From positions 1-23,770 of the IMG/VR virus record IMGVR_UViG_3300046007_012434: a DNA stretch of 23,770 nucleotides. The stretch is one strand, 5' to 3'. Origin of the DNA: a virus. Under the pieces are notes generated by a model, which worked only from the letters and a program-made list of their open reading frames with translations, was not told where the DNA came from and did no database searches. Shown here in pieces: positions 666 through 17,398 of the stretch; position 1 is the stretch's first letter; each line of letters begins with the position of its first letter. A program made the translations under genes and the position numbers.

Positions 666-3067
666 TATAATGATGTTCCATTTGGTGCTACTATACTTAT
701 AAATCTTGATGCTGCATTTCCTGCTTCTGGTAAGTAATTTGGTAGTGGGGTAAAACTAAATCCAGTTACTTTTACCACATGAGGTAATTGGGAAATGGTA
801 TTATCCTTTGTTCCATCAGGATTTATTGCTATTTCCCAAGTAGAATCTTCAGCTATATCAACACTAAATCCTTCAATATAACCAGGTAAGTTATATATAT
901 AACCCCCAACAGTTAAACTAACTATTGGACCTTGCATAAATCCATCCACATATTTAGGAGCGGTCATACTAGCTAAATAATTTAATCTTTTATACATTGG
1001 AAGAAGTTCTTCTCTTGATAAAGCTGCTATTGTCCAAGATAATGAAAGTTTTCTTGTTTGACCAGAATAAGTATAAAAATTTTCTCCTCGTCCTGGATAT
1101 TGTTGAGAGTTAATTCCTGCTGTGTATGAATCTGTTATTCCTCCTAAAAATGCTCTAAAGGCTAATGTACTACCACTGGTAAATAAACTTTGTATTCTAA
1201 ATTGAACTAAATCATCATTAGATAAATCTTCACCTATACCTTCAGCATTAATTAAATCTCTTGTAAGAATATTTCCTGTTCCTTTAGTAAAGTCTGATAG
1301 ATTTTTTAACTTAGTGCCAGGATTACCTAATAAATTTTTAACACCTATATTTCTATCAGTATAACTAATATAATTTTCATCAACAATATTTCCTGTTTTT
1401 AAATAATCTTCAGCAACAGTATTATTTGTTATTTTTCTACGAAGTACTTTTCTAAAATCTTCTTTTAATAAACTTGTATATCTTGCAGATTCTTGTTCAT
1501 CTAAATCTTTTTGACTATATGATATAGCACCACCATTCAAAGTTGGTGTTTCTCCTCCAACTTTTGTAGGGTCAGATATTAAAGGATAAGTACCTGGTGA
1601 GGATTGATACACTGTTTTAGGAGTTCTATAAAAACTCTCTAAATATAAAGGTTGGTTATTTTCTCCATCCCCTACTAATTTTGAAATACCTGTTTGAGTT
1701 AAAAGATTATATTTTGTACTTGTTTGAGGAGATGAAGCATCAATATAATTAGAGCCACTAGGATTTGTAACATCTTGTTTTGCTGTCCAAGTTAATGGTC
1801 CCTGTGGTATGTTAGATAAATTTGAAGATTGAGGAGTATTTACATTATTGCTTGGTAAACCATATTGAGTAGATTTAGTCCAAGATTTATCAGGATTTAT
1901 TTGTAAACCACCTATTTGTTCATCTTCAGCATTTACTGTTTTTTGTATAAAACTACCACCATTTCCTAATATCCTTTGATCTTCAGGAATTACTTCATCA
2001 ACTAATTTATTATTTGTTGTGAAAGGAGATAAATCAAATACTTCTAGGAGTTTATTATCTTCACCTTTTCGAGCATTTAAATATGTTATAAAAAATGAGT
2101 TGTTTAAATATTCACTAGAATATTTGTCAATATTTCCCCATTTGAATTCACCATCTCTAGTGTATTGAGGAGTCCAAGTACTTGGTCCTGAATACCAAGT
2201 ATTATTTAGACTGGATGATTGGGGGGAATTTACATTATTGTTAGGTAAAGTGTCTGTATAAAATTTTCCCTTGTAATCAAAAACAATACCTCCTTTAATC
2301 CAAGATTTTGTTCCATCACCTGTTTCTATTTGTAAACCACCAACTTGTTTATCTTCAACATTAACTGATCTTTGGTTGTTTTTACCTGTAAAAAAATCAG
2401 GGTTAGATGAAAAATATGGGTTTTGATTACCTGTTCTAAATGAAGAATATCTAATATTTGTTTTTCCAACACCTAAAATAGAACCAGGACCACCAATATA
2501 TGTTAAAACATTAGCAGGTCCATTATTTAAAATAAAACCATCTAATTTATCACCAGCATTTATTGATACTAACTGATGTAATCTGGCTAATCTATTATCT
2601 TCAACAGGTTGTGTTGGTTTTACTTTAACACTGTATAAAGCAATATTATTAGCATAAGCTCCTGTTTCAGCAAAAGGATTAACACCTTGTTTATTTAAAT
2701 GACCTCCTATGTTTACAACTCCTGCTTGAGCTAATGTATTTAAAGGTGAATAAATACCTTCATTAACACCTCTAGTTGTTTGAGTTCGAACAGCTGTTTG
2801 AGATAATAAATTTTGTTTAGCAATAAAAAGTAACCCATTAGGAGATTTAGTATCAGTAAACATTTTGGTTAAACGTTTGATATCTGTAGCAGCATCTCCT
2901 ACAACATTAACTCCTCCTCTTAAAATAAAATCTTCATTTGCTCCTAAATTATTAAATCCATCAGGAATTGGTTCTTGAATATAAGGCTGTCCACTATACC
3001 CTCCTCCGATGGTATCTTTCCCATATCTTAGGGACTTAAGATCAGTTTTTAGGTCAATTAAACCCAT
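665..3067 (-). CDS. Large baseplate/tail structural protein with internal duplication
   Basis: An 800-residue protein, Asn/Ser/Pro-rich in the middle. The N-terminus (1-150) looks like a structural anchor with a helical stretch near 62-95. The middle contains two diverged copies of one module, residues ~234-300 and ~377-428, each with the order VN.ED.Q.GGLQI, KSW, LP.NNVN.PQSS.L and a closing P.TWT. The C-terminal ~618-790 is a compact domain with LFTSGSTLAFRAFLGGITDS and QYPGRGENFYTYSGQTRK, ending in a beta-rich segment (IVSLTVGGYIYNLPGYIEGF). That end resembles the tube-like or cap domains of baseplate centre proteins (gp48/gp54 type), which is my inference. It starts at an ATG overlapping the preceding stop (TAATG) and couples in the same way to the following gp53-like gene. 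I do not recognise the full-length protein. Confidence 0.7.
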   Translation of the reverse strand: MGLIDLKTDLKSLRYGKDTIGGGYSGQPYIQEPIPDGFNNLGANEDFILRGGVNVVGDAATDIKRLTKMFTDTKSPNGLLFIAKQNLLSQTAVRTQTTRGVNEGIYSPLNTLAQAGVVNIGGHLNKQGVNPFAETGAYANNIALYSVKVKPTQPVEDNRLARLHQLVSINAGDKLDGFILNNGPANVLTYIGGPGSILGVGKTNIRYSSFRTGNQNPYFSSNPDFFTGKNNQRSVNVEDKQVGGLQIETGDGTKSWIKGGIVFDYKGKFYTDTLPNNNVNSPQSSSLNNTWYSGPSTWTPQYTRDGEFKWGNIDKYSSEYLNNSFFITYLNARKGEDNKLLEVFDLSPFTTNNKLVDEVIPEDQRILGNGGSFIQKTVNAEDEQIGGLQINPDKSWTKSTQYGLPSNNVNTPQSSNLSNIPQGPLTWTAKQDVTNPSGSNYIDASSPQTSTKYNLLTQTGISKLVGDGENNQPLYLESFYRTPKTVYQSSPGTYPLISDPTKVGGETPTLNGGAISYSQKDLDEQESARYTSLLKEDFRKVLRRKITNNTVAEDYLKTGNIVDENYISYTDRNIGVKNLLGNPGTKLKNLSDFTKGTGNILTRDLINAEGIGEDLSNDDLVQFRIQSLFTSGSTLAFRAFLGGITDSYTAGINSQQYPGRGENFYTYSGQTRKLSLSWTIAALSREELLPMYKRLNYLASMTAPKYVDGFMQGPIVSLTVGGYIYNLPGYIEGFSVDIAEDSTWEIAINPDGTKDNTISQLPHVVKVTGFSFTPLPNYLPEAGNAASRFISIVAPNGTSL

Positions 3068-3315
3068 TATCTAGGAGGATTATCTAAGTATTTATCAGGT
3101 GTTTTACCATCCAAATCTAATTGGGATTTAGTTAGACTAGCTATTTGAACTGTTTGTTTATTATATTCTAATGGGTTTTTACCATCCAAATCTAATTGGG
3201 ATTTAGTTAAACCAGCTATTTGAGCTGTTTGTCTGTCATACTCTAGAGGTTTTTTACCATCTAATCCACTTAATAAGGATCCGTCATTTGTTAGTTTATT
3301 TAATAGTGATGCCAT
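3067..3315 (-). CDS. Small tandem-repeat protein between tape measure and baseplate genes
   Basis: An 82-residue protein built almost wholly of a 25-residue repeat. Copy 1 is residues 18-42, copy 2 is 43-67, and a partial third copy starts at 68. The consensus is LDGK.PLEY..QT.QIA.LTKSQLD. Residues 1-17 (MASLLNKLTNDGSLLSG) form a short leader. No signal peptide, membrane helix or catalytic motif is visible. It is the first gene after the tape measure and has a copy of the AATATTTATAA box 12 nt before its ATG. Its TAA overlaps the ATG of the 800-residue gene, so it probably heads the baseplate operon. Function unknown. A structural or assembly role is inferred from position; the repeat could pair with a periodic partner, but that is speculation. 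Confidence 0.72.
   Translation of the reverse strand: MASLLNKLTNDGSLLSGLDGKKPLEYDRQTAQIAGLTKSQLDLDGKNPLEYNKQTVQIASLTKSQLDLDGKTPDKYLDNPPR
3085..3264 (-). repeat. 75-bp tandem coding repeat (2.4 copies)
   Basis: Two 75-bp units (3190-3264 and 3115-3189) and a partial third (3085-3114) encode the LDGK.PLEY..QT.QIA.LTKSQLD units. Copies 1 and 2 differ at scattered positions, mostly in the middle of the unit, while the stretch encoding TKSQLDLDGK is nearly identical at DNA level. Confidence 0.85.
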
Positions 3316-3327: not shown

Positions 3328-3338
3328 TTATAAATATT
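3328..3338 (-). promoter_or_regulatory. Late-type box AATATTTATAA before the 82-residue gene
   Basis: The coding strand reads AATATTTATAAATAA, 12 nt before the ATG at 3315, in the short gap after the tape-measure stop (3342). This copy is the only one that contains both TATTTATA and the canonical T4 late box TATAAATA in the sense direction. Promoter role inferred from recurrence before transcription units. Confidence 0.55.
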
Positions 3339-3341: not shown

Positions 3342-6335
3342 TTATTGAACTTTAGATGTTCCCATTGCAAATCCTGTACCTACTTTGGTTGTATCTAAAT
3401 AAATATTTGTTTCTTTTGCTAGTATTTGTTGTAGTACTGATTTTATTTCAGCTAATTCATTATCTCTTTCATTACCTCCACCAATAACATTTCCTAAAGC
3501 TTGGATAGGGGCTGTAATAGCATTTACAATACCACCAACTGCATTTCCTATACTATTAGTAGTGGCAAATTCATTTAATGAATCTAATTTATCTGTATCA
3601 ATTTGGTTTAGGGCATTTGCTACTCCCATCAAAGCTGTAGCCATTTGTGTTAAGGCACTAGCTGTTGTTTGTAAAGGTCCAGCCATTTCTGCTAAAACTA
3701 CAATTTGATCTATAATTCCACCACCAAAAAATGAACTCACACCAGCAGCTGCTAATGCAATAGCAAAAGCTCCTAACCCAACAGAGGCACTTAATAAAGC
3801 GGGTCCTAGTAAAATTAAGTTTCCAATTTTGTCTAAGGAAAGAGAATCCATTAATATAACAAAACCTTCAGCAACTGATGTTACTAAAGTTGCTAATCCG
3901 TCAAAAATAGATGTTATTACTTTACCAAAGGCTTCAATAGCTGGTGCTGCTAGATTAAGAGCAAATCCTATGCCTATTAAAGCTCCAGTCAATAAAGCAA
4001 GTCCAACTGCTGCATAAGCTAATCCTACTGGTCCTAATGCTTCCATTGATTTTCCAAAACTTTTTATACCTTTTCCAAGTGCTGTTAATCCTTTACCGGC
4101 TGGTATTCCTATTGCTGCTAGAGCTAATAAAGCAGGAACTGCTAATGTCATTACTGCTAATGCTCCTGCTGTGGCTGCTAATTTACCAATGTCTTTAAAT
4201 TCAACTAATTTAAATGATTGAATTCCTTTAGATAGATTAGTTAAGAAATTTTTAATATTTTTTCCTGCTTGGTTGGTTATTCCTTTTGTTTTGTCTGCTG
4301 CTGCTTCAGCTCCATCACCTGCTTTATTGGCCATTTCTTTTGTTTTATCACCACCAAAGAATCCTTTAATTTTATCTTTTGCTTCTCCTAATCCTTCTTT
4401 TGTAAATAATCCACCTATACCTTTTACCATTCCTGCTATACTTTTAGCCATAGAACTAAATCCAGAAACCATAGCTGGGATTGTTTTGAAAGCTATTATT
4501 GTTAATATAGTGCCTATGCCTACCCATGATGAAGCAAACCATGCTACAAGATCTATTAAAGGAGAAAATATACTTACAATACTTCCTAATATATCTAATA
4601 CTTTATTTAAAACATTTTGTAATTTTTCGGTAGCATTTTGAGTTTTCATAGATTCATATGTTGTGTCACCATATATTCTTTTGAAATCTTCGGCTGCCAT
4701 ATTATTAAATTTTTGTTGTAAAGTAATTTTAGCCAATTGATCACGATTAATACCCATAGCTTTAGCTATTGCTTCTTGTTTAATAACATTTTTAGAGGCA
4801 AAAGCATCTTGAATAATAGCATTATCATTTAATGATTTAGATAATCCTTCTAAATCACCTGCTAAGGCTAATTGTCTTTCTTTTTCTAAATTAATATCTT
4901 TACCAGTTAATAATTCGGCTTCTAATTCAGCTTCAATAGATGATTCAAAATTTAGTAAACTATCGGCTACTCCTTGAACTTCAGATAATGAAAGACCTAA
5001 TTTAGTAGCAGCAGCGGCTGCTTTAATTAGTTTATCATTACTGAAGCCTAAATTAGCTTGTAAACCCATAGAAGCACCTGCTGCTTCTTTTAATACTTTA
5101 TTAACATTTAAAGCAGTTTTGTTTTGTTTATTAAATTCACCAACTATTTTTATGTTATTTTCTAATACTTTTTCAGTATCTTTACTTTGTAATCTAGCAT
5201 TAGTTACTAATGTAGCTGATTCTTTAGCACTAAAACCTAATTTTTGTTCTAAGTTTGTTGCTGATATTAAAGCATCATTTCCTAAAACTTGGGCAGACAT
5301 TCCTAATTCATTAGTTAGAGATGCTGCTGCTTTCATTAGTTTTTCAGTAGTAACAAAAGCATCTCCTGATGCTAGAGCTACTCCTGACATTTCTTGTTTT
5401 AACAAGTATGCATTTGTATATGACATACCTGTTTCTTTTCTTAATTCTGCTGTTTGTTTAGAAGCTTCAATAGCTGATTTTAAAGCAAAAGCTGCTATAG
5501 CTTCAAAAGATGTTATATTTTTTACAAAACCTTTACCTAATTCACTAAGAGATGCTTGTAATACTTTTATTCTTCCAGCTGTATTAAGAGGTTTTTCACC
5601 ATTTGCTGTTAATTCTGCTGCTAATTTTTTTCCTGCTGCTGCTGCTTTATCAAAATTAAATGCTGAGGCTAGGGAACTTAAACCAAGTTCTTTCATTGCC
5701 TCATTTGCGCTTTTTAAAACATCTCCTGTAAGTCCAGTAGCATCTTTTATATTTTTAGTTCTTTCTAGTAATTTACCTTCTACTTCTGCCTGTTGTTTGT
5801 ATTCTAAAGTTTGTTGACCTAAAAGCTTTAATATATCTTTTTCATTTTCACTAATTTTTAAATCCCTTTTTTCAATTAAATCTAAAATTTCTAACTCACC
5901 ATTTTTAGCTTTTACTATAGCATCAACAATTTCAGCATTGTTTTGGTTATTAGCTAGTACTTTTGACAATAATTGATCTTGTTCATTAAGAAGATTTGAT
6001 TGTAATTTTCTTCCTTTTTCAATTTTTTCTTCAAGATCAGCTAAATCAGATGTTCCATCAAGAAGATCATCTATTGAATTATTGATATCTTTAACATAAT
6101 CAGCTTGTTTTTTAAAAGCATTAAGTAATTCTCTGCTTTGAATCTTATCAATAGCTGTATATGTTTTTAAAGATCTTTCAAGCTCATAAGCAAGATCTCT
6201 ATAAATAAATAAATTATCTGAGGCTGCATCCTTTAGTTTTTGTTGATTTTTTGCTGCTTTTTCAGTAGCATTAGCTATTCTCTCAGTATTTTGAGCATTT
6301 TGAGCATTTATGTTAGGATCTTGGTTATTAGCCAT
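3342..6335 (-). CDS. Tail tape measure protein
   Basis: A 997-residue protein that would run along the lumen of the tail tube, setting tail length and being ejected before DNA. The N-terminal ~15-200 is Gln/Asn/Lys-rich and predicted coiled coil. Residues ~200-570 are Ala/Leu/Lys-rich helical, with motifs such as ELRKETGMS and ELLTGKDINLEKERQLALAGD. Long hydrophobic segments lie at about 580-625, 718-747, 766-800 and 838-868, as expected of tape measures that enter the host membrane. The Gly/Ala/Lys-rich stretch ~630-700 links them. The C-terminus ends NIYLDTTKVGTGFAMGTSKV. It directly follows the tube and chaperone genes, the standard place for a tape measure. At about 0.15 nm per residue this would imply a tail near 150 nm, a rule-of-thumb estimate. 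The promoter-like box lies 14 nt upstream of the ATG. The + strand open frames inside it look like shadows. Confidence 0.92.
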   Translation of the reverse strand: MANNQDPNINAQNAQNTERIANATEKAAKNQQKLKDAASDNLFIYRDLAYELERSLKTYTAIDKIQSRELLNAFKKQADYVKDINNSIDDLLDGTSDLADLEEKIEKGRKLQSNLLNEQDQLLSKVLANNQNNAEIVDAIVKAKNGELEILDLIEKRDLKISENEKDILKLLGQQTLEYKQQAEVEGKLLERTKNIKDATGLTGDVLKSANEAMKELGLSSLASAFNFDKAAAAGKKLAAELTANGEKPLNTAGRIKVLQASLSELGKGFVKNITSFEAIAAFALKSAIEASKQTAELRKETGMSYTNAYLLKQEMSGVALASGDAFVTTEKLMKAAASLTNELGMSAQVLGNDALISATNLEQKLGFSAKESATLVTNARLQSKDTEKVLENNIKIVGEFNKQNKTALNVNKVLKEAAGASMGLQANLGFSNDKLIKAAAAATKLGLSLSEVQGVADSLLNFESSIEAELEAELLTGKDINLEKERQLALAGDLEGLSKSLNDNAIIQDAFASKNVIKQEAIAKAMGINRDQLAKITLQQKFNNMAAEDFKRIYGDTTYESMKTQNATEKLQNVLNKVLDILGSIVSIFSPLIDLVAWFASSWVGIGTILTIIAFKTIPAMVSGFSSMAKSIAGMVKGIGGLFTKEGLGEAKDKIKGFFGGDKTKEMANKAGDGAEAAADKTKGITNQAGKNIKNFLTNLSKGIQSFKLVEFKDIGKLAATAGALAVMTLAVPALLALAAIGIPAGKGLTALGKGIKSFGKSMEALGPVGLAYAAVGLALLTGALIGIGFALNLAAPAIEAFGKVITSIFDGLATLVTSVAEGFVILMDSLSLDKIGNLILLGPALLSASVGLGAFAIALAAAGVSSFFGGGIIDQIVVLAEMAGPLQTTASALTQMATALMGVANALNQIDTDKLDSLNEFATTNSIGNAVGGIVNAITAPIQALGNVIGGGNERDNELAEIKSVLQQILAKETNIYLDTTKVGTGFAMGTSKVQ

Positions 6336-6349: not shown

Positions 6350-6360
6350 TTATAAATATT
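6350..6360 (-). promoter_or_regulatory. Late-type box AATATTTATAA before the tape measure gene
   Basis: Exact copy of the 11-bp box, 14 nt before the ATG at 6335 and immediately downstream of the terminator hairpin. It would restart transcription for the tape measure after termination. Function inferred. Confidence 0.6.
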
Positions 6361-6361
6361 A

Positions 6362-6396
6362 AAAAACAAAAAGTGGGCATCATTTATATGATGCCC
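6362..6396 (-). terminator. Intrinsic terminator after the chaperone genes
   Basis: On the coding strand a 9-bp perfect stem GGGCATCAT / ATGATGCCC (6396-6388 and 6383-6375) closes a 4-nt loop, and is followed by ACTTTTTGTTTTTT. This is a classic rho-independent layout. The stem contains the last codons and the TGA (6382-6380) of the short chaperone frame, so the terminator overlaps coding sequence. It separates the chaperone unit from the tape measure. Confidence 0.85.
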
Positions 6397-6586
6397 TTTT
6401 TCCTGTTGGAGCCACAGGTGATTTAGGTATACCATTTTTATTAGTCCAAGATGCTTCTGCTTTTTTCTGTTCTTGGTTTTGGTTTTCATAGTATTCCTTA
6501 ATTTTATTAAAAGTAAAATTTCTTAACCATATAGGCATATTATATATGGTGTAATAATCGTATCCTCCTTGTCCATGAAATACCAT
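6380..6586 (-). CDS. Second tail-assembly chaperone frame (gp51-like position), likely expressed by frameshift
   Basis: From its first ATG (6586) the frame encodes 68 residues, beginning MVFHGQGGYDYYTIYNMPIW and ending in a Lys/Gln-rich tail. The frame is open upstream to a TAA at 6646-6644. Translated, that extension reads GLTQEYRLTLFTQIHE, continuous in character with MVFHGQGGY, and contains no ATG, GTG or TTG. I therefore think the ATG at 6586 is internal and the true product is a fusion reached from the gp26-like gene by a ribosomal frameshift at the T7 run. Gene order (tube, chaperone 1, chaperone 2, tape measure) matches phage G/GT-type tail chaperones. In T4-like phages this slot holds gp51 or short relatives; that match is from memory. 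The other reading is independent initiation at 6586, 29 nt after the gp26-like stop. A terminator hairpin overlaps its stop. Confidence 0.72.
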   Translation of the reverse strand: MVFHGQGGYDYYTIYNMPIWLRNFTFNKIKEYYENQNQEQKKAEASWTNKNGIPKSPVAPTGKRASYK

Positions 6587-6614
6587 TTCATGAATTTGAG
6601 TGAATAAAGTTAAC

Positions 6615-7358
6615 CTATATTCCTGCGTCAGGCCAAAAAAAGTTTAGATTAATAGGAACATTAGCGCCCTCCTCGACACCATTTGGTCCATCATAATCAA
6701 ATTTTATTTCAATTTCAGGAGTTACTGAACGAATATATTCTCTTAATGATCTGGCATCTCTGGCTAATAACATATTATCAACAAATTGTCTTATTGTTTT
6801 GCTTTCTGTATTACCATCAATAGAAGTAATAATATGTTTTAAACGAGTTGTTAATTCTGGGTTTGAATCTTTGTTTATTTTTTGTAGACCTTTAATTTCA
6901 TCATTTATTTTTTTATCATCACCATGAGATAATAATTTAAATGTTAATATATGACCTGTAGTAGGTAAAGTATAAGAGAATTCATTTTTACCTTTAGCCC
7001 ATAATGATTCATCTACTTTATTTGGTTCTAGTATACTTAAATCAACAACACATTTGTCTCCTTTATACATGAACTCATAATCTTTACCGTAACCTAAAAC
7101 ACGAGCAGCAATCATAATTGCGTTTTTATCTACTAAAAGTAAATCATTATAATCAAATTTAGTTACAATCAAAGATTGTAATAATTTATCAATAACAATT
7201 CCTTTTTCAATGTAAGCTCTATTAGTTAAAATGTCTTCTTCTTTAGCAGTCATATATTTCATTTCTATTTTACCTGAAGCTAAGGGATGATTTTCGGGAT
7301 AAAGTAAACCTTTTGAAGGTAACTCAACCATTTCTGTTGGAAACTTTAATTCACTCAT
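6615..7358 (-). CDS. 26: gp26-like baseplate hub / tail-assembly chaperone
   Basis: A 247-residue protein with the hallmark start of the T4 gp26 baseplate family (Pfam T4_baseplate type): MVELPSKGLLYPENHPLASG, then KIEMKYMTAKEEDILTN and an IDKLLQSLIV helix. T4 gp26 is about 208 residues, so length fits. In T4 it is assigned to the baseplate hub. In many environmental relatives, as here, it sits between the tube and the tape measure, the place of a tail-assembly chaperone that binds the tape measure. The C-terminus NLNFFWPDAGI overlaps a T7 run from which translation may shift into the next frame. The AATATTTATAA box lies 11 nt before its ATG, and a hairpin separates it from the tube gene, so it starts a separate, probably lower-level, unit. 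Family call strong, role split between hub and chaperone. Confidence 0.82.
   Translation of the reverse strand: MSELKFPTEMVELPSKGLLYPENHPLASGKIEMKYMTAKEEDILTNRAYIEKGIVIDKLLQSLIVTKFDYNDLLLVDKNAIMIAARVLGYGKDYEFMYKGDKCVVDLSILEPNKVDESLWAKGKNEFSYTLPTTGHILTFKLLSHGDDKKINDEIKGLQKINKDSNPELTTRLKHIITSIDGNTESKTIRQFVDNMLLARDARSLREYIRSVTPEIEIKFDYDGPNGVEEGANVPINLNFFWPDAGI
6632..6646 (-). other. Candidate programmed frameshift site (T7 run)
   Basis: The coding strand reads AAC TTT TTT TGG CCT in the gp26-like frame, with seven T at 6641-6635, eleven codons before that gene's TAG (6617-6615, counting AAC as the first). The downstream frame is +1 relative to this (ACT TTT TTT GGC CTG). It is bounded upstream by a TAA at 6646-6644, so only the T run and the sequence just after it allow a shift. 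A +1 slip of Phe-tRNA from TTT to the overlapping TTT keeps full pairing. A -2 slip is equivalent in frame, but tandem re-pairing is poorer because AAC precedes the run. The expected fusion is about 325 residues. Confidence 0.6.
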
Positions 7359-7369: not shown

Positions 7370-7380
7370 TTATAAATATT
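7370..7380 (-). promoter_or_regulatory. Late-type box AATATTTATAA before the gp26-like gene
   Basis: Exact 11-bp box, 11 nt before the ATG at 7358 and directly after the GC-rich hairpin that follows the tube gene. The hairpin-then-box order repeats that before the tape measure. Promoter role inferred. Confidence 0.6.
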
Positions 7381-7387: not shown

Positions 7388-7421
7388 GAAAGAAGCTCGC
7401 GATTTCTCGCGAGCTTTCTTT
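7388..7421 (-). terminator. GC-rich hairpin after the tail tube gene
   Basis: On the coding strand a 9-bp perfect stem AGCTCGCGA / TCGCGAGCT (7415-7407 and 7402-7394) encloses GAAA, a GNRA-type tetraloop. The stem extends by several A-T pairs across one bulge. It is followed by TTCTTTCTTC, U-rich but not a pure U run. It is unusually GC-rich for the window. It probably terminates or attenuates transcription after the highly expressed tube gene and may also stabilise its mRNA. On the opposite strand the stem is also followed by a T-rich stretch. Confidence 0.75.
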
Positions 7422-7439: not shown

Positions 7440-7928
7440 TTAGAAGTTCAACACACAGTAATCCATACCAAGTGTTAACTGTAAGTTAATAGCTTGGTTT
7501 TCAGTGTCCCAGTTATATTCACCAAAGTTTCCACCTTTAATAAAGGCACCTTTAATTACCCATTCAGAAACAATGTCACCTACAGGACCTAATACATCGA
7601 TGGTTAAATCTTTCTTATAGAAATCTGAATAACCATCACGTCCTGTTACTGATTCATGATGTAAACGTACCCATTCCATTACTGCTTGAGCACCTGAAGG
7701 TGTGATAGGATCAAATAGAGTCATTGTTAAATCATTCCATTTGGTTTTGCCTTTAACTTTAGTATAAACGTTTATATGGTTTAATACTACTTCACCCTGT
7801 TCGAACGTTACAGCTGATATTCCTTTGATTACATACGATGGTATACCATCTATATACATAATGAATCTGTTTGCCTGTTTTGGTTCAAAGGCTGTGAAAA
7901 ATATTTCGTTTGGATCTAAGATTGCCAT
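7440..7928 (-). CDS. 19: Tail tube protein (gp19-like)
   Basis: A 162-residue protein, against 163 in T4 gp19. It forms the inner tube through which DNA passes. Family features visible are the FTAFEPKQANRFIMYIDGIP start, followed by VIKGISAVTFEQGEV, the WNDLTMTLFDPI strand, a VMEWVRLHHESVTGRDGYSD helix region, and the closing beta segment with IKGAFIKGGNFGEYNWD and LTLGMDYCVL. It lies directly downstream of the sheath, as in T4. The promoter-like box is 21 nt before the ATG, and a hairpin ends the unit just past its stop. The complete length and intact core leave little doubt. Confidence 0.95.
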   Translation of the reverse strand: MAILDPNEIFFTAFEPKQANRFIMYIDGIPSYVIKGISAVTFEQGEVVLNHINVYTKVKGKTKWNDLTMTLFDPITPSGAQAVMEWVRLHHESVTGRDGYSDFYKKDLTIDVLGPVGDIVSEWVIKGAFIKGGNFGEYNWDTENQAINLQLTLGMDYCVLNF

Positions 7929-7949: not shown

Positions 7950-7960
7950 TTATAAATATT
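7950..7960 (-). promoter_or_regulatory. Late-type box AATATTTATAA before the tube gene
   Basis: Exact 11-bp box, 21 nt before the ATG at 7928, the longest spacing among exact single copies. It sits in the sheath-tube gap and would give the tube its own transcript. Function inferred. Confidence 0.6.
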
Positions 7961-7974: not shown

Positions 7975-9705
7975 TTACACAGGGAAAGAAACTCCAGTTG
8001 GTAAAATGCTAAAGTTCAAGTAAACAAATTCAGCAGTTTTAGTTGGTTGTAAGTAAATTTGACCTACTAATTGGTTTCTATCAATTACATCAGGAGTGTT
8101 ATTTGATTCATCCATTACTACTTTGAAAGCATACAAACCTTGTCTTTGTTGTACTGATTCCAAATAAGGGTTAACTTGAGCTAAGAATTGGTTTCTTGTA
8201 GCAATTGTGTTTTGTTCAAATACCAAGTTATTAGCAACTTGTGAAATGTAAGATTTAAGAGCAATTAACAATCTACGTACATTTACTCTATCAAGAGCAG
8301 ATGCTTTAGTTTGTAATGTTTTCTGACCATATACTACAGTTCCAGTTCCTGGGAATGTTGCTATTGGGTTAACTTTGTTTTGGTATAAAGTATCACGGTT
8401 AGTTTGAGTTAATTTCTTTTCAGCTCTTACTACTGTGCTTAATCCACCTCTGTTAATACCAGCTGGAGCAAACCAAGGCTCACTTACTGAATCATTGTAA
8501 GCATAAACACCAGCTACCATAGTTGAAGCAGGTACCCATACTAATTGAGCAGAATCAGGATCAATTGTTTGAACCCAAGGCCAATAAGCAGCAGCATATG
8601 AAGTATTTTTAGCATTTGCTTGAGTTGTTACTGTTGTAATACTTGAGCTAAATGGTACTAAATCATTTACAAAAATATTATCACCTCTGTTTTCAGTATT
8701 AGAAATAATTGAAGTTACTTGAGAAGAACCAATTGGTGCTTCAGAAGCAAACAAACCAGGAGCAATTAAAGCATTGAATCTGTAATCATCTTGATTTGAT
8801 AACAAAGCAATCATATTATTATAATCACTTCCTGTTAAACCTTGAGTATTTGTTACACCAGAAATAATATTGTTATAATATTTAGCATTTCCTCCAAATA
8901 AATTACCTGTTGCTCCACCAAATGAACCACTAGCTGCTACTGGAATTGAACCTGTAAAAGAAGATTTTGCTGTACCATTATTATCAAAATAGAATGGGGT
9001 TGGAGTTAATACTGAAGATACATAAACATATCTTGAAGCATTTGGATAAGTTCCATTAACTACAATTTGATTATCTGTAGAATCGTACTGTCTATATTGA
9101 TCACCAATTACTTTAGCTACATAATTTGGAGCTGTTGGATCCATTGATAAGTTAGTCCAAGCTTCTAATACAGTTGGAGTAGTAGTGGTATCATCACCTT
9201 GTCTAATTAATAATGAGAATGTACCAGATGCTGTATCTGCATTAGTAATTTGCCATCTAATGTTATCAGATGAACCTGATGCTAAAGTTCCATTAGTTCC
9301 TAAACTGCTTGTACTATTCATAATGGCACCTTGTGAAATAGTGGCAAATCTAACTGATTCTGAAGTGTTAGAATTTAGAATAGGAGTACCTTGAGAACCA
9401 GAGGTAGTAGCTGATGTGAATGAACCACTTTTAACTCTTGCTACTAATAATGTTTCACCTCCATTAGCAAAATAGTTATAAGCTGCTATTGAAGTAAAAT
9501 AAGTGTAAACATTACTTGCACTTAAAAAGGTAGTACCGAATTTATTTTGATAGTCACTGTATGAAGTAACAACGGTAGGAATTTCTACTGGACCTTTAAC
9601 AGTAGGACCAATAATAGCAGCTCCTACTACTACTGGTTGTTGAGTAATAAACGATTGATCATTTTCAATCGCTAATACGCCAGGGGATATTAATGTTTCT
9701 GCCAT
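7975..9705 (-). CDS. 18: Tail sheath protein (gp18-like)
   Basis: A 576-residue protein (T4 gp18 is 659) that forms the contractile sheath round the tube. The N-terminal linker arm and strand are typical: ETLISPGVLAIENDQSFI, then VVVGAAIIGPTVKGPVEIPT. A large Ser/Thr/Gly-rich, likely surface-exposed middle (about 100-300) is variable in this family. The conserved core follows, with AAYWPWVQTIDPDSAQ and VRAEKKLTQTNRDTLYQ, and LDRVNVRRLLIALKSYI. The C-terminal arm includes LQPTKTAEFVYLNFSI and ends TGVSFPV. Both linker arms needed for sheath meshwork appear intact. It immediately precedes the tube gene. Only a degenerate promoter-like box is seen, 30 nt upstream. Start chosen because the family begins at this point. 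Confidence 0.95.
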   Translation of the reverse strand: MAETLISPGVLAIENDQSFITQQPVVVGAAIIGPTVKGPVEIPTVVTSYSDYQNKFGTTFLSASNVYTYFTSIAAYNYFANGGETLLVARVKSGSFTSATTSGSQGTPILNSNTSESVRFATISQGAIMNSTSSLGTNGTLASGSSDNIRWQITNADTASGTFSLLIRQGDDTTTTPTVLEAWTNLSMDPTAPNYVAKVIGDQYRQYDSTDNQIVVNGTYPNASRYVYVSSVLTPTPFYFDNNGTAKSSFTGSIPVAASGSFGGATGNLFGGNAKYYNNIISGVTNTQGLTGSDYNNMIALLSNQDDYRFNALIAPGLFASEAPIGSSQVTSIISNTENRGDNIFVNDLVPFSSSITTVTTQANAKNTSYAAAYWPWVQTIDPDSAQLVWVPASTMVAGVYAYNDSVSEPWFAPAGINRGGLSTVVRAEKKLTQTNRDTLYQNKVNPIATFPGTGTVVYGQKTLQTKASALDRVNVRRLLIALKSYISQVANNLVFEQNTIATRNQFLAQVNPYLESVQQRQGLYAFKVVMDESNNTPDVIDRNQLVGQIYLQPTKTAEFVYLNFSILPTGVSFPV

Positions 9706-10030: not shown

Positions 10031-10711
10031 TTAAATGTATATTATGTGATAATAAAAATCTGTATCAGGAACTGTTGATTCAAAAGTTAATGAAGTACCT
10101 ACTAAACTATTAACTACCATATTGTTTGAAGCACCATTGCTTCCAGAAGGAGTAGCTGTTACAAAACAATTCTGTCCTAATGTTTTTCCTGAAATTTCAC
10201 TTATATTAATTATAACGGTATTAGTGGCTGTTTTACTAGCCCCTGCTATAAATTTTAAAGAGGCACTCGGTTGTGAAGCTGATCCACTTGGATAATAAGT
10301 ATTTTGAACTGAAGTTGCTGGTCCAGTTGATGAAGCATATGAAGCTGTTCCAAACAAACTACCTGTTATGGTAGTTACAGTCAATGTGTTTGTAGATGGA
10401 TTATATTTTAAACTATCATCATCAAATCTTAAAGCTGAATTGTTTGATTGGGTTGTATTAAATAAAGCTACAGCTAAAAATTCTGGAGAAACAGATGAAG
10501 TTATTGTTGATGTATCTGCTTGTGAAGCCACACCCAATAAACTTCCAGTATAACCATTCAAAGACATTACTGAACCAGTAAATGTTGTTGAACCAGATAT
10601 TTTTATATCATAGGCTACAGTACCTGTTAAAGCATCAATACTTTGAGATACATCAGATGCCTGTATAGTATTTCCTGTTAGGATATTACTTTTTGAGAGA
10701 ACTAAAGCCAT
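10031..10711 (-). CDS. Fibre-type structural protein with the shared TGS/TASYA module
   Basis: A 226-residue protein. The N-terminus MALVLSKSNILTGNTIQASD followed by VSQSIDALTGT looks like an attachment segment. Residues ~40-70 and ~110-130 hold the fibre motifs TGSLLGVAS and TGSLFGTASYAS shared with the larger fibre genes here. The C-terminal ~140-226 is beta-rich (VIINISEISGKTLGQNCFV, LTFESTVPDTDFYYHIIYI) and may be a small tip domain. No membrane or signal sequence. It lies between the 113-residue gene (19 nt gap) and the coiled-coil gene (15 nt gap), both without late-type boxes, which suggests one transcript from 11072. It is probably a short fibre or a connector carrying the same shaft type as its neighbours; role inferred. 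Confidence 0.75.
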   Translation of the reverse strand: MALVLSKSNILTGNTIQASDVSQSIDALTGTVAYDIKISGSTTFTGSVMSLNGYTGSLLGVASQADTSTITSSVSPEFLAVALFNTTQSNNSALRFDDDSLKYNPSTNTLTVTTITGSLFGTASYASSTGPATSVQNTYYPSGSASQPSASLKFIAGASKTATNTVIINISEISGKTLGQNCFVTATPSGSNGASNNMVVNSLVGTSLTFESTVPDTDFYYHIIYI

Positions 10712-10730
10712 TTTTTATTATATTAATTTT

Positions 10731-11072
10731 TTAAATCATTTCCCACCCATCAGTGTTAGCTGGGATACCATAAATATCATTGGTATTGAACCAATCTAAT
10801 AACATTATTTCTACACCTGTTTGGATTTGTTCTGTAAATGGTAGGTTTTCAATTTGTGGTTTTAAAGCATCATACATGTCATTTATTTGTTGATTAGAAT
10901 ATAAATCAATACCTGTATGAATTAACATATTACGTCCATCTTGCTCATAATAGTGAGAAGTGGTAGAAACATATTCATTATTTCTAATTTCTAAAACACT
11001 ATTTATAAAAATGTATTTTAATACATCTGGTTGTAATGGATTTACACTAACTGTTGTTTTTGACTTTATCAT
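10731..11072 (-). CDS. Conserved-looking small phage protein, function unknown
   Basis: A 113-residue protein without fibre repeats. It begins MIKSKTTVSVNPLQPDVLKY and contains a HYYEQDGRNMLIHTGIDLYS segment, a helix with QQINDMYDALKPQIENLPFTE and a C-terminal LDWFNTNDIYGIPANTDGWE. It looks like a globular alpha/beta protein. It starts a unit preceded by two copies of the late-type box 21 bp apart, and is followed by a fibre protein and a coiled-coil protein. I do not recognise it. Its place between fibre and sheath genes suggests a virion assembly or structural part, but nothing in the sequence proves that. Confidence 0.7.
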   Translation of the reverse strand: MIKSKTTVSVNPLQPDVLKYIFINSVLEIRNNEYVSTTSHYYEQDGRNMLIHTGIDLYSNQQINDMYDALKPQIENLPFTEQIQTGVEIMLLDWFNTNDIYGIPANTDGWEMI

Positions 11073-11087
11073 GTTTAATTTGTTTTA

Positions 11088-11098
11088 TTATAAATATG
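11088..11098 (-). promoter_or_regulatory. Late-type box, proximal copy of a pair
   Basis: The coding strand reads CATATTTATAA, 15 nt before the ATG at 11072. One base differs from the consensus. Confidence 0.55.
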
Positions 11099-11108
11099 TG
11101 ATATTTTG

Positions 11109-11119
11109 TTATAAATATG
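11109..11119 (-). promoter_or_regulatory. Late-type box, distal copy of a pair
   Basis: The coding strand reads CATATTTATAA, identical to the proximal copy and exactly 21 bp further upstream, about two helical turns. The only duplicated box in the window. Confidence 0.55.
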
Positions 11120-11126
11120 TAGTTTT

Positions 11127-14048
11127 TTAAGCTATTTCATAAGAACCGTTCCAAGATATTTCATCTAAGTTTCCCCAAGTAAAAGGAACTGTTGATTCTA
11201 ATCCAACAGCTACTGAGCTTGTGTTTTGCCATTGTATTTCTGATCTTGTAGAACTTCCAAGCCTTCCTCCATTCATTAATCCTGAATACCAGTTAATACC
11301 ATTATCTAAGAATGAAGATGGTATTTGGATTCCGTAAGCAGAAGATGCTGTAAATGGTAATTGGAAATACCAAGCACCTGTTCCATAAGTAGTTGTAGTT
11401 CCCATTACTAATCTTCCTCTTACAAAGCATGTTTTACCAATTACTTTATATTGACCTGTTATTGTTCCATCTCCAATTACAGGATCTGATGATGCAGCTG
11501 TCCAAACAGGAGTATACGAAGTCCAAGCTGTTGATAATTCTGAACCGTTAAAGTTAAGAGAACCAGTGGCTTGTATTGAACCAGTAAACGAAGGAGCATT
11601 TACAGAACCAAAGAAATCTACTCTTTTGGTTGAAAAACTTCCTGTTATTAACAGGTTTGTAGAAGAGTTAGCTAGTATGAAAGTATTAGAAGCAGCTGTT
11701 ATTGTTGATCCTGCTGCATAACCTATGAATACATTATAATTTCCTAAAGTTAATCTACCAGCTGTATATCCTAGATAAACTGAACCGTCATTAGATCCTG
11801 TTCCAGTAGCTGTAGCATTTTGATAACCTGCTTCATAACCTACTGCTACCATGTAACGAGAAGAAGATGCTAATTGCATAGCTCCATGTCCAACAGCTAC
11901 GTTTGAAGTAGTTGATCCTAAACTGTTAAACCATCCCATGGCTGCAGATCCTATGATTGTATCACTAATTGAAGTTCTTAATCCATATCCTGCTGAAGGT
12001 CCTATAGCTACAGTAAAATCAGAACCAGCACCTGACATATCTCTACCAGCTAAATAACCTATTAAAACATGTCTTCCATTTGATACGTTTCTTCCAGCAG
12101 TATAGCCAATAGCTATACCATAATCATCATTACCATCATTACCTACAAAGTTATTTCCAAATGCATCAAAACCAATAGCTATAGCACCAAATCTTGTATA
12201 ATTTAATAGTGAGTTATATCCGATAGCTACGTTATTAGACCCACTTTGATTGGCGTTTAAACTAAATACACCTATTCCAATATTAGCTTCTCCTACTGAA
12301 TTATTTTTCAGAGAAGCTCTTCCTAAAGCTATGTTGTTAAATCCTGTTGTTAAATTTCGTAAAGGTTCACTATTACTATTATCAAAACCAATAGCTATAT
12401 TATTATTTCCAGATGTTAATCCTAAAGCTATAGCATCATTTCCTGCAAAGAAATTATTAAATCCTGTTGTTATTGAAGGGTAAGTAGTAAGCCTACTCCC
12501 AAACATAAAGTTGTTTCTACTAGTGTCATATCTTACTACCCAGTTTGAACCTATCTTATAACCCATTGTAGAACCGGTTAAAGGAGTTACATCAATAAAT
12601 GAAGAAGCAGATGTTAAACTCATGTTTCCAAAGAAACCTGATGAGCCTGTTACAATTAGGCTTCCAGTAATAGCTGCTGAACCTGTAAATGGGAAAACAG
12701 CAGCGTATGAAGCAGTAGTTGCAAATGAAGCACTTAATGCTTGTGAAGCATATGAAGCTGTTCCTAATAATGAACCTGTGAATGAGGGAGCATTAACTGA
12801 ACCAAAGAAATCTACTCTCTTGGTTGTAAAGCTTCCTGTAATTAAGAAATCTGTTGATGAGTTAGCTAGTATAAAAGTGTTTGAGGCTGCTGTAATAGTT
12901 GCACCAGCATCATAACCTAAAAATACATTATAATTTCCTAATGTCAATCTACCAGCTCTGTAACCAACATAAACTGAACCATCGTTAGATCCTAACCCAG
13001 TTGCTGTTCTATTTTGATAGCCGGCTTCATAACCTATAGCTACCATGTAACGAGAAGAAGAAGCATATTCCATAGCTCCATAACCTATAGCTACGTTATC
13101 TCTTGTTGTTCCTAAACCATTAAAATCCCACATAGCTAAGGCACCAACAACAGTATCATTATTTGAAGTTCTTAAACCGTAACCAGCTGAAGGCCCTATA
13201 GCAGTTGCATTATTAGAAGTAGTTGCTGTCATATCTGCAGCAGTAAATGCTCCTATTAAAACATGACTTCCAGTTACTACGTTAATACCAGCATTATATC
13301 CAATAGCTACATTATAGTCATCTGAGGCTGCATTTCCGGCATGTCTGTTTAAAGCTGCATGTCCTATAGCTATTGAACCTACTCTTGTATAAACATTTAG
13401 AGCTGTATATCCCATAGCTATATTGTGAGAACTACTTTGATTAGTATATAAAGCAAGTTCTCCTATACTTATATTGTGGTTTCCTACAGAAAGACTTCTT
13501 AAACCTCCCCTTCCTAAAGCTATATTGGATTGACCAGTTGTTAAACTTCGTAAAGGTTCATTATTAGTAGTATCAGAACCAATAGCTATATTATTAAACC
13601 CTGTTGTTAAACCGTTTGCTATAGAAGGACCACCTGCGAAGAAATTATTACCGCCTGAACCTGTTACAGAAGCATATGTAGCTGTACTACTTCCTATAAT
13701 TAAGTTATTTCTACTAGAGTCATATCTTGTAACCCAGTTTGAACCTATTTTGTATCCAAAATTTGAACCAGTTAAAGGAGTTATGTCTATGAAAGATGAG
13801 CCAGATGTTAGACTCATGTTTCCGAAAAGTCCTGATGAACCTGTTACAAATAAACTCCCAGTAATATCTGCTGAACCTGTGTAAGGGAATGCATTACCAC
13901 TACCTCCTGCATTTAAAGCAAAAGATGCAGTTGTGGCAAAAGATGAACTAGTTGCAAATGAAGCTGTTCCTATAACCGTTCCACCAGTTACTGTTAAGCT
14001 TCCTGATAGGGATGAATCTCCTAATATTTGAGCGTTATCTATTCTCAT
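11127..14048 (-). CDS. Tandemly duplicated fibre/adhesin with YadA-like head repeats
   Basis: A 973-residue protein, probably a receptor-binding tail fibre. Residues 1-53 are an N-terminal segment with the ASFATTASFAL shaft motif. Two copies of a ~398-residue unit follow (about 54-426 and 452-824). Each starts FP[YF]TGSA.ITGSL and GNMSLTS.SSFID and ends KRVDFFGSVNAPSFTGS. Within each, 13 or so short strands of the form N.AIG..A recur every 16-23 residues, as in the left-handed beta-roll of YadA-type trimeric adhesins and Bacteroidota surface repeats. The C-terminal ~845-973 is a separate beta domain (YTPVW, VIGDGTITGQYKVIGKTCFV, GAWYFQLPF), a type seen at fibre ends in many phages and prophages. 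The late-type box ends 3 nt before the ATG. Trimerisation and receptor binding are inferred. No S74-type chaperone is visible. Confidence 0.85.
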   Translation of the reverse strand: MRIDNAQILGDSSLSGSLTVTGGTVIGTASFATSSSFATTASFALNAGGSGNAFPYTGSADITGSLFVTGSSGLFGNMSLTSGSSFIDITPLTGSNFGYKIGSNWVTRYDSSRNNLIIGSSTATYASVTGSGGNNFFAGGPSIANGLTTGFNNIAIGSDTTNNEPLRSLTTGQSNIALGRGGLRSLSVGNHNISIGELALYTNQSSSHNIAMGYTALNVYTRVGSIAIGHAALNRHAGNAASDDYNVAIGYNAGINVVTGSHVLIGAFTAADMTATTSNNATAIGPSAGYGLRTSNNDTVVGALAMWDFNGLGTTRDNVAIGYGAMEYASSSRYMVAIGYEAGYQNRTATGLGSNDGSVYVGYRAGRLTLGNYNVFLGYDAGATITAASNTFILANSSTDFLITGSFTTKRVDFFGSVNAPSFTGSLLGTASYASQALSASFATTASYAAVFPFTGSAAITGSLIVTGSSGFFGNMSLTSASSFIDVTPLTGSTMGYKIGSNWVVRYDTSRNNFMFGSRLTTYPSITTGFNNFFAGNDAIALGLTSGNNNIAIGFDNSNSEPLRNLTTGFNNIALGRASLKNNSVGEANIGIGVFSLNANQSGSNNVAIGYNSLLNYTRFGAIAIGFDAFGNNFVGNDGNDDYGIAIGYTAGRNVSNGRHVLIGYLAGRDMSGAGSDFTVAIGPSAGYGLRTSISDTIIGSAAMGWFNSLGSTTSNVAVGHGAMQLASSSRYMVAVGYEAGYQNATATGTGSNDGSVYLGYTAGRLTLGNYNVFIGYAAGSTITAASNTFILANSSTNLLITGSFSTKRVDFFGSVNAPSFTGSIQATGSLNFNGSELSTAWTSYTPVWTAASSDPVIGDGTITGQYKVIGKTCFVRGRLVMGTTTTYGTGAWYFQLPFTASSAYGIQIPSSFLDNGINWYSGLMNGGRLGSSTRSEIQWQNTSSVAVGLESTVPFTWGNLDEISWNGSYEIA
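11577..12695 (-). repeat. Copy 2 of ~1.2-kb internal duplication
   Basis: Encodes residues 452-824 of the 973-residue fibre, matching copy 1 at a near-constant offset of 398 residues. Landmarks FID.TPLTG, EPLR.LTTG and SSSRYMVA.GYEAGYQN are shared. Confidence 0.85.
12771..13889 (-). repeat. Copy 1 of ~1.2-kb internal duplication
   Basis: Encodes residues 54-426 of the 973-residue fibre. It differs from copy 2 at many scattered residues, mainly in the loops between the AIG strands, while strand cores and the 3' end are better kept. Confidence 0.85.
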
Positions 14049-14051: not shown

Positions 14052-14062
14052 TTATAAATATT
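14052..14062 (-). promoter_or_regulatory. Late-type box AATATTTATAA, 3 nt before the 973-residue fibre ATG
   Basis: Exact 11-bp box ending 3 nt before the ATG at 14048. A promoter this close would give a leaderless or nearly leaderless mRNA. Confidence 0.6.
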
Positions 14063-14069: not shown

Positions 14070-14264
14070 TTACCTCCAAACCCCTGATATTTTAATTTTA
14101 GGTTCAGTTTGCTTCCATACTCCAGCTACTTTTATCCATGTTATTGCTTGTTTCCACACACCTGCTATTTTAATCCACATTATGTTTCCTGTAGATGCGG
14201 GAGCAACAATAGGGACTTGTCCTATTTCAATGGTCGCACCGTCGAATAATCTTCTTGTTGCCAT
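14070..14264 (-). CDS. Small protein with repeated WIK.AGVWKQ motif
   Basis: A 64-residue protein. Residues 1-29 include RRLFDGATIEIGQVPIVAP. The rest is three copies of a short beta-hairpin-like motif: WIKIAGVWKQ (30-39), WIKVAGVWKQ (43-52) and KIKISGVWR (57-64), spaced about 13 residues. Runs of this K..GVWK motif occur in phage tail-tip and fibre-associated proteins as far as I recall, but the function is not established here. No signal or membrane segment. It is the last gene of the four-gene cassette, with only one base between the preceding TAA and its ATG, so it is probably coupled to it. It could be a small capping or decoration subunit of the fibre. Confidence 0.72.
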   Translation of the reverse strand: MATRRLFDGATIEIGQVPIVAPASTGNIMWIKIAGVWKQAITWIKVAGVWKQTEPKIKISGVWR

Positions 14265-16130: not shown

Positions 16131-17384
16131 TTATGTATATTGTAAATAAATATCTCCATCAGAACCGCCTGAAGGTGCTGCTGTTCCTGATGTTATAACC
16201 TTATTAGCACCAAGTGTATTATATGATATTGTCCTTGATGTTGAACCGTTAAAAGAAGTTCCTGGAGCGTCACCACTTCCTGAGTCATTAAATGTAATAG
16301 GATTTGTAGTTACACCACCATTTAAAGCAAATGAAGCTGTTAATGAGTAAGAAGAACTTAAGGCATAAGATGCACTTACTACACTTCCTAATAATAATGA
16401 TGCTGTCGCCGCATATGAAGAGCTTGTTGCGATAGAAGCAGTAGCAGCATATGAAGCACTTACTACACTTCCTAATAATACAGAGGCTGTAGCAGCGTAT
16501 GAAGAACTTAGGGCTTGATTAGTGTAACTTGATGTTCCTAAAACACTACCAGTAAATGATCCTGTAAACGAACCTGTTCTAAATGATCCAGTGAAACTAT
16601 TAAACGCTGTTAAAGTTGTATAAGCAGGAGCAAATGATGCTGTAGCGGCAAATGAAGAACTTAAAGCATTATTAGCATAAGATGCTGTTCCTAATAATGA
16701 TCCTGTAAAACTTCCTGTAAATGATCCTGTAGTGTATGAACTTGTGAAAGTATTAAAACTTGAAGTTGTTACAAATGAGCCTGTGTTTATATTTCCTCCT
16801 CCACCATTAAGAGCGAATGAGGCTGTTAAGGCAAAAGACGAACTTAAGGCATAAGATGCACTTACTACACTTCCTAATAATACAGAGGCTGTAGCAGCGT
16901 ATGAAGAACTTAAAGCATTTGTAGCATAAGAAGCTGTACCTAATAAACTACCTGTAAATGAACCTGTGAATGAACCACTTCTATAAGAACTAGTAAAACT
17001 ATTAAAGCTTGTAAGAGTAGTATAATTAGGAGCTAATGATGCTGTTGAGGCAAATGATGAACTTAAAGCATTTGTAGCATAACTTGCTGTTCCTAAAAAT
17101 GAACCAGTAAAACTACCTGTGAATGAACCTGTAGTGTTTGTTGGAGCAAATGATGCACTTAAAGTATAAGAAGCACTTGTTGCAATAGAAGCAGTTGCAG
17201 CATAACTTGAACTAACTACACTTCCTAATAATAAAGAAGCTGTAGCAGCGTATGATGAGCTTAAAGCATTTGTAGCATAAGATGCTGTACCTGTTAGATT
17301 TCCCATAATAGAACCGGAAATTCTTAAACTCCCTGTTATACTTAAATCATCTATACTCGCTGAGTCTGTGAAAAATATTGCCAT
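16131..17384 (-). CDS. Repetitive tail fibre shaft protein
   Basis: A 417-residue, extremely Ser/Ala/Thr/Gly-rich protein. It opens MAIFFTDSASIDDLSITGSL and then repeats one shaft module: FTSSY..GSFTGSFTGS, LLGTASYATNALSSSYAATA, LLLGSVVSASYAL. Four TGSFTGSFTGS or SGSFTGSFTGS blocks are present. Residues ~360-417 are a non-repetitive end with FNDSGSGDAPGTSFNGS and a terminal GGSDGDIYLQYT, a motif I associate with ends of phage fibres. Two identical 55-bp segments lie inside the gene. The late-type box ends 3 nt before the ATG. The protein is likely a trimeric fibre. Whether it binds the host or serves as a shaft for the cassette proteins downstream is open. Confidence 0.82.
   Translation of the reverse strand: MAIFFTDSASIDDLSITGSLRISGSIMGNLTGTASYATNALSSSYAATASLLLGSVVSSSYAATASIATSASYTLSASFAPTNTTGSFTGSFTGSFLGTASYATNALSSSFASTASLAPNYTTLTSFNSFTSSYRSGSFTGSFTGSLLGTASYATNALSSSYAATASVLLGSVVSASYALSSSFALTASFALNGGGGNINTGSFVTTSSFNTFTSSYTTGSFTGSFTGSLLGTASYANNALSSSFAATASFAPAYTTLTAFNSFTGSFRTGSFTGSFTGSVLGTSSYTNQALSSSYAATASVLLGSVVSASYAATASIATSSSYAATASLLLGSVVSASYALSSSYSLTASFALNGGVTTNPITFNDSGSGDAPGTSFNGSTSRTISYNTLGANKVITSGTAAPSGGSDGDIYLQYT
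16456..16510. repeat. 55-bp exact repeat, copy A (fibre shaft)
   Basis: Identical to 16858-16912 by eye; encodes part of the SSSYAATASVLLGSVVSAS shaft unit in the 417-residue fibre gene. Confidence 0.85.
16858..16912. repeat. 55-bp exact repeat, copy B (fibre shaft)
   Basis: Identical to 16456-16510 by eye, 402 bp apart within one gene and in the same frame (402 is a multiple of 3), so recombination between them would delete or add whole shaft units in frame. Confidence 0.85.
17211..17292. repeat. 82-bp near-identical repeat shared between fibre genes, copy A
   Basis: In the 417-residue fibre gene; matches 18998-19079 in the neighbouring 1109-residue gene with one mismatch (81/82 by eye). 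Confidence 0.85.
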
Positions 17385-17387
17385 TTG

Positions 17388-17398
17388 TTATAAATATT
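17388..17398 (-). promoter_or_regulatory. Late-type box AATATTTATAA, 3 nt before the 417-residue fibre ATG
   Basis: Exact 11-bp box, ending 3 nt before the ATG at 17384 and 6 nt after the stop of the upstream gene. Confidence 0.6.

Follow-up and report, generated by a model that had tools for sequence, protein, structure and literature searches.

Here, we report that two overlapping reading frames in a 23,770-nucleotide stretch of viral DNA (positions 1 to 23,770 of IMG/VR record IMGVR_UViG_3300046007_012434; hereafter, the window) are very probably explained by programmed +1 frameshifting within a tail chaperone gene of the gp26/gp51 type. The frame arrangement is conserved among relatives, and both the second-frame extension and the shift site are constrained. 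One gene would yield two tail assembly chaperones. Most ribosomes would follow the gp26-like frame to its TAG and release the short form, TAC-N (247 aa); a fraction, holding peptidyl-tRNA-Phe on TTT while TGG occupies the A site, would pause there, the P-site tRNA would slip forward by one base onto TTT, and the +1 frame would then be read to its end. The product, TAC-NC (325 aa), would carry a helical C-terminal domain resembling the one in T4 gp51. If the parts act as lambda G and GT do, the abundant N part would coat the tape measure, and the C part, made rarely, would bring in tube subunits. Ribosomal shifting, its frequency, and the chaperone role are inferred from DNA. A first-pass annotation of the window had proposed a programmed frameshift in the tail chaperone pair, and the proposal was supported: extension and T run are conserved, and 116 of 126 loci keep the frame relation with a [TC]TT-TGG site.

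The genes concerned lie on the minus strand in the order tail sheath, tail tube, gp26-like gene, short ORF with an ATG at 6586, and 997-aa ORF (Table 1), which bears out the annotated likeness to the gene order of phage chaperone pairs. The ORF at the place of the 997-aa ORF is annotated as tail tape measure in Immutovirus and SP-15; the window's own ORF was without a Pfam or PHROG match at E < 0.1. Both chaperone frames are flanked by two terminator-like hairpins and by copies of the box AATATTTATAA (7380-7370 and 6360-6350), and neither box nor hairpin occurs between the gp26-like ORF and the second ORF. There are seven copies of AATATTTATAA in the window (3328-3338, 6350-6360, 7370-7380, 7950-7960, 14052-14062, 17388-17398, and 20738-20748, minus strand), all on the coding strand and directly 5' of ORF starts (0.24 expected); it is likely a promoter element of the phage. 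Matches resembling sigma-70 promoters were at chance level here (7 versus 10.8 expected). Elsewhere, several ORFs in 16131-20995 and in parts of 10031-14048 (minus strand) are made of near repeats such as GSFTGSFTGSLLGTASYA and perhaps encode tail or fibre proteins. Two small minus-strand ORFs are also repetitive, one of 64 aa (14070-14264) with repeated K(I/V)(A/S)GVW units and one of 82 aa (3067-3315) with repeated LDGKxPLEYxxQTxQIAxLTKSQ units.

Table 1. Features of the two-frame chaperone locus and its neighbours (window coordinates)
Feature	Position	Strand	Basis
Tail sheath protein, gp18-like	7975..9705	-	phrog_23, E 2.2e-75; PF04984, E 4.6e-17
Tail tube protein, gp19-like	7440..7928	-	phrog_4542, E 1.9e-21
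Terminator-like hairpin before the unit	7393..7416	-	z -5.7
gp26-like putative tail assembly chaperone, short form (TAC-N), 247 aa	6615..7358	-	ORF; phrog_150 (baseplate hub), E 4e-8; PF12322, 17.8 bits
GGAGG, Shine-Dalgarno core, 26 nt 5' of T run	6668..6672	-	Conserved across clusters; synonymous codon choice
T7 run with predicted +1 shift site	6635..6641	-	P site TTT 6638-6636, A site TGG 6635-6633
Zero-frame stop TAG closing the short form	6615..6617	-	Sequence; stop position in 61/61 clusters
+1-frame C-terminal part (TAC-C), 84 codons plus stop	6380..6634	-	Conservation in relatives; dN/dS; phrog_634
Terminator-like hairpin overlapping the +1 ORF end	6375..6396	-	z -3.8
Large ORF, 997 aa, putative tape measure protein	3342..6335	-	Position only

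The gp26-like ORF ends in NLNFFWPDAGI, followed by TAG, and reads AAC TTT TTT TGG CCT GAC GCA GGA ATA TAG around the run; the first T stands eight codons before the stop, where the first pass had counted eleven. In the +1 frame, the same stretch reads TAA ACT TTT TTT GGC CTG and onward (TFFGLTQEYRLTLFTQIHEMVFHGQGGYDYYTIYNMPIW...), running to TGA at 6382-6380. Because TAA lies immediately 5' of ACT, entry from the gp26 frame must occur at the run or a few codons after it. As annotated, this frame is open from the run with no usual start codon: no ATG, GTG, or TTG precedes the ATG of MVFHG (6586), and there is none before codon 16. In the window sequence, taking TTTT a single time as one step produces a fusion of 325 residues. 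TTTTTTTGG occurs once on the window's coding strand and is kept in relatives, which places the arrangement beyond chance.

Relatives were collected in three scans. A scan with the +1-frame protein found 238, of which 80 were kept; one of its six search peptides spanned the site, a possible bias toward the site. All 80 loci share the frame relation of the window (79 with TTTTTTTGG, L027 with TTTCTTTGG). Two further scans with distant gp26-like proteins as queries gave 10 and 36 loci, with a +1 [TC]TT-TGG site in 2 and 34, respectively; 8 of the remaining loci were -1 and 2 were cut off. Taken together (126 loci), 116 had the +1 relation with [TC]TT-TGG, 8 had a -1 heptamer at the homologous place, and 2 were cut off. 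Adding the window, L082, L083, L087, and L091 to the 116 gave 121 loci with the site; removal of copies identical over 300 nt left 100 entries, and removal of two spurious second matches (L082 and L102) left 98 non-redundant sequences, which formed 61 clusters at 90% nucleotide identity. The window is represented by L002, identical in this region. The [CT]TT TGG pattern was part of cluster selection, though the loci had been fetched by protein, and it dropped only the -1 group, the cut-off loci L135 and L137, and the distant phages SP-15, GXN1, and LR756508; L135 likewise reads TTT TTT TGG. Searches with SP-15 and RM378 queries returned the same phages and nothing else. No p-values are given because the clusters share ancestry.

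The shift site was TTTTTTTGG in 55 of 61 clusters, as would follow from the annotated T run being kept at one place, TTTCTTTGG in 3, and TTCTTTTGG in 3. The P-site codon was TTT in 58 clusters, CTT in 3, and TTC in none; P-site Phe was thus TTT in 58 of 58, and TTC makes up 19% of Phe codons elsewhere in the same genes. Asn before the run was AAC in 37 of 37 (24% AAC elsewhere in the same genes). The base 5' of the run was C (51 clusters), G (9), or A (1), and never T, and this held when clustering at 40% protein identity reduced the set to 9; a T there would create the -1 heptamer T TTT TTT. All 61 clusters have a slip codon [CT]TT followed by T, allowing +1 re-pairing to TTT (a pattern partly selected for), and the zero-frame stop lies 5 to 10 codons past the site start in all 61 (selection limit, ≤20). 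The A-site codon was TGG throughout (TGG was required in selection) and is CAC in SP-15, CGT in GXN1, and CTA in LR756508. GGC CTG after the run can be explained by coding in both frames. A stop codon in the A site and a stable RNA structure are common helpers of efficient shifting. The former occurred in 0 of 61 clusters, and RNAalifold on four stretches detected no stable structure; folding of 106 nt of the window gave z -0.17.

On its own, T7 permits +1 and -2 shifts alike, and the first-pass annotation had named both. A -2 ribosomal shift at the run, as in phage Mu, would add one more Phe, and in the 55 clusters with the run, seven Ts let the P-site tRNA-Phe re-pair two bases back. This re-pairing is barred, however, at TTC TTT TGG (3 clusters; L102, L103, and L105), where the P-site tRNA can re-pair +1 and not -2 at that codon, and likewise at the homologous TTC TTT CGT of Streptococcus phage GXN1 and AAC TTT CTA of LR756508. 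The TTCTTTTGG form and these two distant phages therefore favour +1; this half of the annotated alternative stood, and a -2 shift appears unlikely. TTT CTT TGG (L027, L082, L100, and L101), an RF2-like CTT-T, and TTT TTT CAC of SP-15 are compatible with either direction. The annotated pure T run was found in most clusters, but slippage would occur on [TC]TT followed by T or C and not on a pure run as such.

A -1 heptamer (X XXY YYZ) leading into the downstream frame does not occur at the +1 loci, the downstream frame being +1. In L088 and L092-L099, the zero frame reads xxT TTT TTC and the downstream frame is -1, a classic heptamer; Leptospira phage LE4 has AGT TTT TTC with the downstream frame at -1 (judged by eye). 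In LE4 (L157, 21543-22645), the gp26-like gene and the next short gene, identified from structural matches and assigned by size, join via the -1 heptamer T TTT TTC. The T run lies one base earlier relative to the frame in the -1 group, and run position thus goes with shift direction. A wider reading, which includes the claim that the same T7 displaced by one base toggles the family between +1 and -1, is offered tentatively, and we would sooner doubt it than rely on it. The annotated +1 variant describes the majority of lineages seen, and some distant relatives appear to shift -1 at the equivalent position.

Separate translation of the second ORF without a shift, from the ATG at 6586, from CTG after the site, or from starts upstream, is less likely still. 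It would make use of an in-frame ATG in the window, and genes are annotated here in Immutovirus (immuto35A_232, a short hypothetical gene covering the C part) and in Microcystis phage Mel-JY01 (WWT39326, from a TTG 5' of the site). Upstream, an ATG, GTG, or TTG stands in the +1 frame in 32 of 61 clusters, and an ATG in 18; against this, 29 clusters, the window among them, have no such codon between the last +1-frame stop and the site, and 43 have no ATG 5' of the site. Downstream, 43 clusters lack a start codon within the first 25 codons after the site (22 lack one both there and 5' of the site), and in 34 of 61 the nearest downstream start is at codon 32. Homologues that start at MVFHG, looked for as the annotation had suggested, were few: the Met position holds Met in 7 clusters, Ile in 41, and Leu in 1, with the motif unfitted in 12, and a second ORF starting at MVFHG was rejected. 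None of the 22 window gene starts with upstream sequence (23 ORFs taken as genes) has a Shine-Dalgarno (SD) sequence, and no start codon lies at a fixed distance after GGAGG. Separate translation also leaves the conserved T run unaccounted for.

The extension itself begins before this Met. In an alignment of relatives, the conserved segment starts 5' of it, and in the AlphaFold model of the +1 part, a helix predicted at residues 7-23 (pLDDT 76) spans the Met at residue 20. In +1 codons 8-15, which lie past the usual zero-frame stop and before the Met, dN/dS was 0.30 (1037 pairs with a divergence of 5-30%; the filter retained 60 of 61 clusters), compared with 0.24 after the Met and 1.5 in the +2 frame (910 pairs). 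By this measure, the codons before the MVFHG Met are under purifying selection, in keeping with the annotated protein-like character of this sequence. In the zero-frame segment upstream, dN/dS was 0.76, probably inflated by ungapped comparison across indels. The C-part annotations in the isolates Immutovirus and Mel-JY01 could be corrected.

Transcriptional slippage by RNA polymerase on T7, with one U lost or two gained, would draw on the homopolymer run found at the junction in most loci, but the junction has no more than 3 consecutive Ts in relatives with TTTCTTTGG and no more than 4 in those with TTCTTTTGG, and the constraint on the preceding base and on codon phase points to the ribosome; we regard it as highly improbable. 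An assembly or sequencing error is hardly credible, for although T runs are error prone, the same arrangement is found in isolate genomes and in 98 non-redundant sequences, including run-breaking variants.

Apart from the +1 shift site itself, the strongest upstream synonymous constraint falls at -33 to -22, where the SD core GGAGG is kept, mostly at -31 to -27. Gly here is GGG in 28 of 30 (background, 5%) and Glu is GAG in 46 of 46 (background, 14%). GGAGG starts within 45 nt 5' of the run in 57 of 61 clusters (exactly at -31 in 44), compared with 6 of 883 45-nt windows drawn from the same genes and 11 of 952 windows of 43 nt, and 7 of the 9 clusters formed at 40% protein identity retain it. 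Its first base falls at codon position 3 in 50 clusters and at position 1 in 7, and this occurrence in two codon phases argues against a mere codon effect. GGAGG was absent from L058, L075, L080, RM378, 7 of 8 -1 loci, and L088; the -1 locus L096 has it at -10. In predicted RNA folding, GGAGG pairs diffusely.

Shifts of +1 are known with the SD at a spacing of 3 nt, and -1 shifts with one of 9-14 nt (PMC5009743); GGAGG, at 26 nt before the run, is outside both. Bacteroidia ribosomes hide their anti-SD (PMC9976891), and Flavobacterium johnsoniae prfB nevertheless retains an SD-like shift motif (PMC8710568). Initiation at GGAGG was rejected for want of a start codon at fixed spacing after it. 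Phage-encoded bS21 as a partner of GGAGG was also rejected, Ribosomal_S21 being found in just 3 of 15 records. The bS21 genes are those of Mel-JY01 and the huge phages LR756508 and LR756511 (L159, L160, and L161); there was none in Immutovirus or in eight IMG/VR contigs, which are possibly fragments. The element is conserved and was unexpected; that it stimulates the shift is a guess. An SD core at this unusual spacing would let a reporter directly test how rRNA pairing acts on the reading frame in a group of hosts whose anti-SD is hidden.

The N part is similar in sequence to the T4 gp26/gp51 family. The gp26-like ORF matches phrog_150, which represents that family, at 34.0 bits over profile positions 10-232 (its PF12322 score is below the gathering cut-off of 24.5), and the window fusion matches it at E 1.4e-9 (38.7 bits, profile 10-265). 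Five other fusions match at E 1.9e-8 to 3e-12, and the L103 fusion matches at E 2.7e-13, with its match ending at position 237. The gain in score from fusion is small: joining the two parts raised the score by 0.8 to 4.5 bits in four of five other ORF/fusion pairs and lowered it by 0.1 bit in the fifth, the only loss among the six pairs. T4 gp26 covers phrog_150 positions 14-235 and T4 gp51 covers 13-280; gp51 thus consists of an N part of the same family plus an extra C-terminal end. The window extension alone matches phrog_634 (gp51 family) weakly (E 0.33); among 21 aligned extensions, 4 match phrog_634 at E up to 1 (best, 2.5e-4) and 8 match phrog_32580, a tail assembly chaperone family (best E, 0.025). 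In profile comparisons, neither T4 gp51 nor T4 gp26 taken singly was matched, and an HMM of the fusions placed both T4 proteins below the inclusion threshold.

The AlphaFold model of the gp26-like protein (pLDDT 89.9) had as its best match among solved structures the HK97 tail assembly chaperone 2ob9 (Z 4.7, under 8; 79 residues, 3.5 Å), followed by the PICI-like element protein 5ir0 (Z 4.2) and two others (2.1 and 2.0); Foldseek alone gave E 0.89 against solved structures. Among viral models, the gp26-like model matched hub assembly proteins of T4-like phages and the hub protein of SP-15; for the extension model, no viral match fell under E 0.001 (best, 0.017). A chaperone function of both products would follow by analogy.

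Out of 13 records examined, T4 and CP220 have two phrog_150 genes each; RM378, GXN1, Mel-JY01, LR756508, LR756511, and the IMG/VR contigs G001 and G002 have one; SP-15 has one plus a further match at E 0.03; and none was found in PTm1, pT24, or LE4. The window is a fragment, and these counts refer to other records. We read this as duplication of the phrog_150 gene in T4-type phages versus frameshifting elsewhere. T4 and CP220 have two such genes and seven frameshift records one each, so the arrangement resembles the T4 chaperone pair recast with a frameshift, and it shares the N part with that pair; the window fusion spans most of phrog_150, including part of the gp51-only end, whereas in T4 two divergent genes stand where the window has a single gene with a proposed shift. 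Vladimirov, Gautam and Davidson (2022) reportedly hold that T4-like chaperones are made by a mechanism other than frameshifting. A literature search, which did not include that work, found no +1 shift in a gp26-type chaperone, and an earlier description is possible. PolyT -1 signals in TAC-N genes of T4-like phages are credited to Vladimirov et al. in excerpts of PMC12846349. The same excerpts describe, for Vandenendeviridae and Andersonviridae (phage Adele), a GTTTTT polyT at the end of TAC-N with the C part as a hypothetical gene; the shift there is -1, as in L088, L092-L099, and LE4, in contrast to +1 here.

Tail chaperone frameshifting is widely conserved in long-tailed phages except T4, according to parts of PMC5009743. 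As at the window, lambda G/GT are described there as two proteins with a common N part, made from one gene 5' of the tape measure by a shift late in the frame; the lambda shift is -1, unlike the +1 shift proposed here in a gp26/gp51-type family. The same parts call the tail chaperone shift of the archaeal myovirus HSTV-2 very likely +1, a likeness in description. The shift site resembles that of RF2 (prfB), with a P-site CTT (TTT in some genomes) followed by T, a tRNA moving to TTT, and an SD-like element upstream (excerpts of PMC12421855 and PMC8710568). The A-site codon differs (UGA in RF2, TGG here), as does the spacing, the RF2 SD lying 3 nt before the slippery sequence and GGAGG 26 nt before the T run. 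The +1 site of influenza PA-X, UCC_UUU_CGU (PMC3498833, in part), resembles TTC TTT CGT C at the homologous place in GXN1; gene and host are unrelated, and the likeness is limited to the shift sequence UUU CGU.

As read from these sequences, the family has a tail chaperone of the gp26/gp51 type with a shift whose direction appears to be +1 in the majority of lineages seen and -1 elsewhere. A family with shifts in both directions offers a comparison for how T4 came by its two genes, and a large family of T4-related tailed phages appears to use the shift that T4 was thought not to use.
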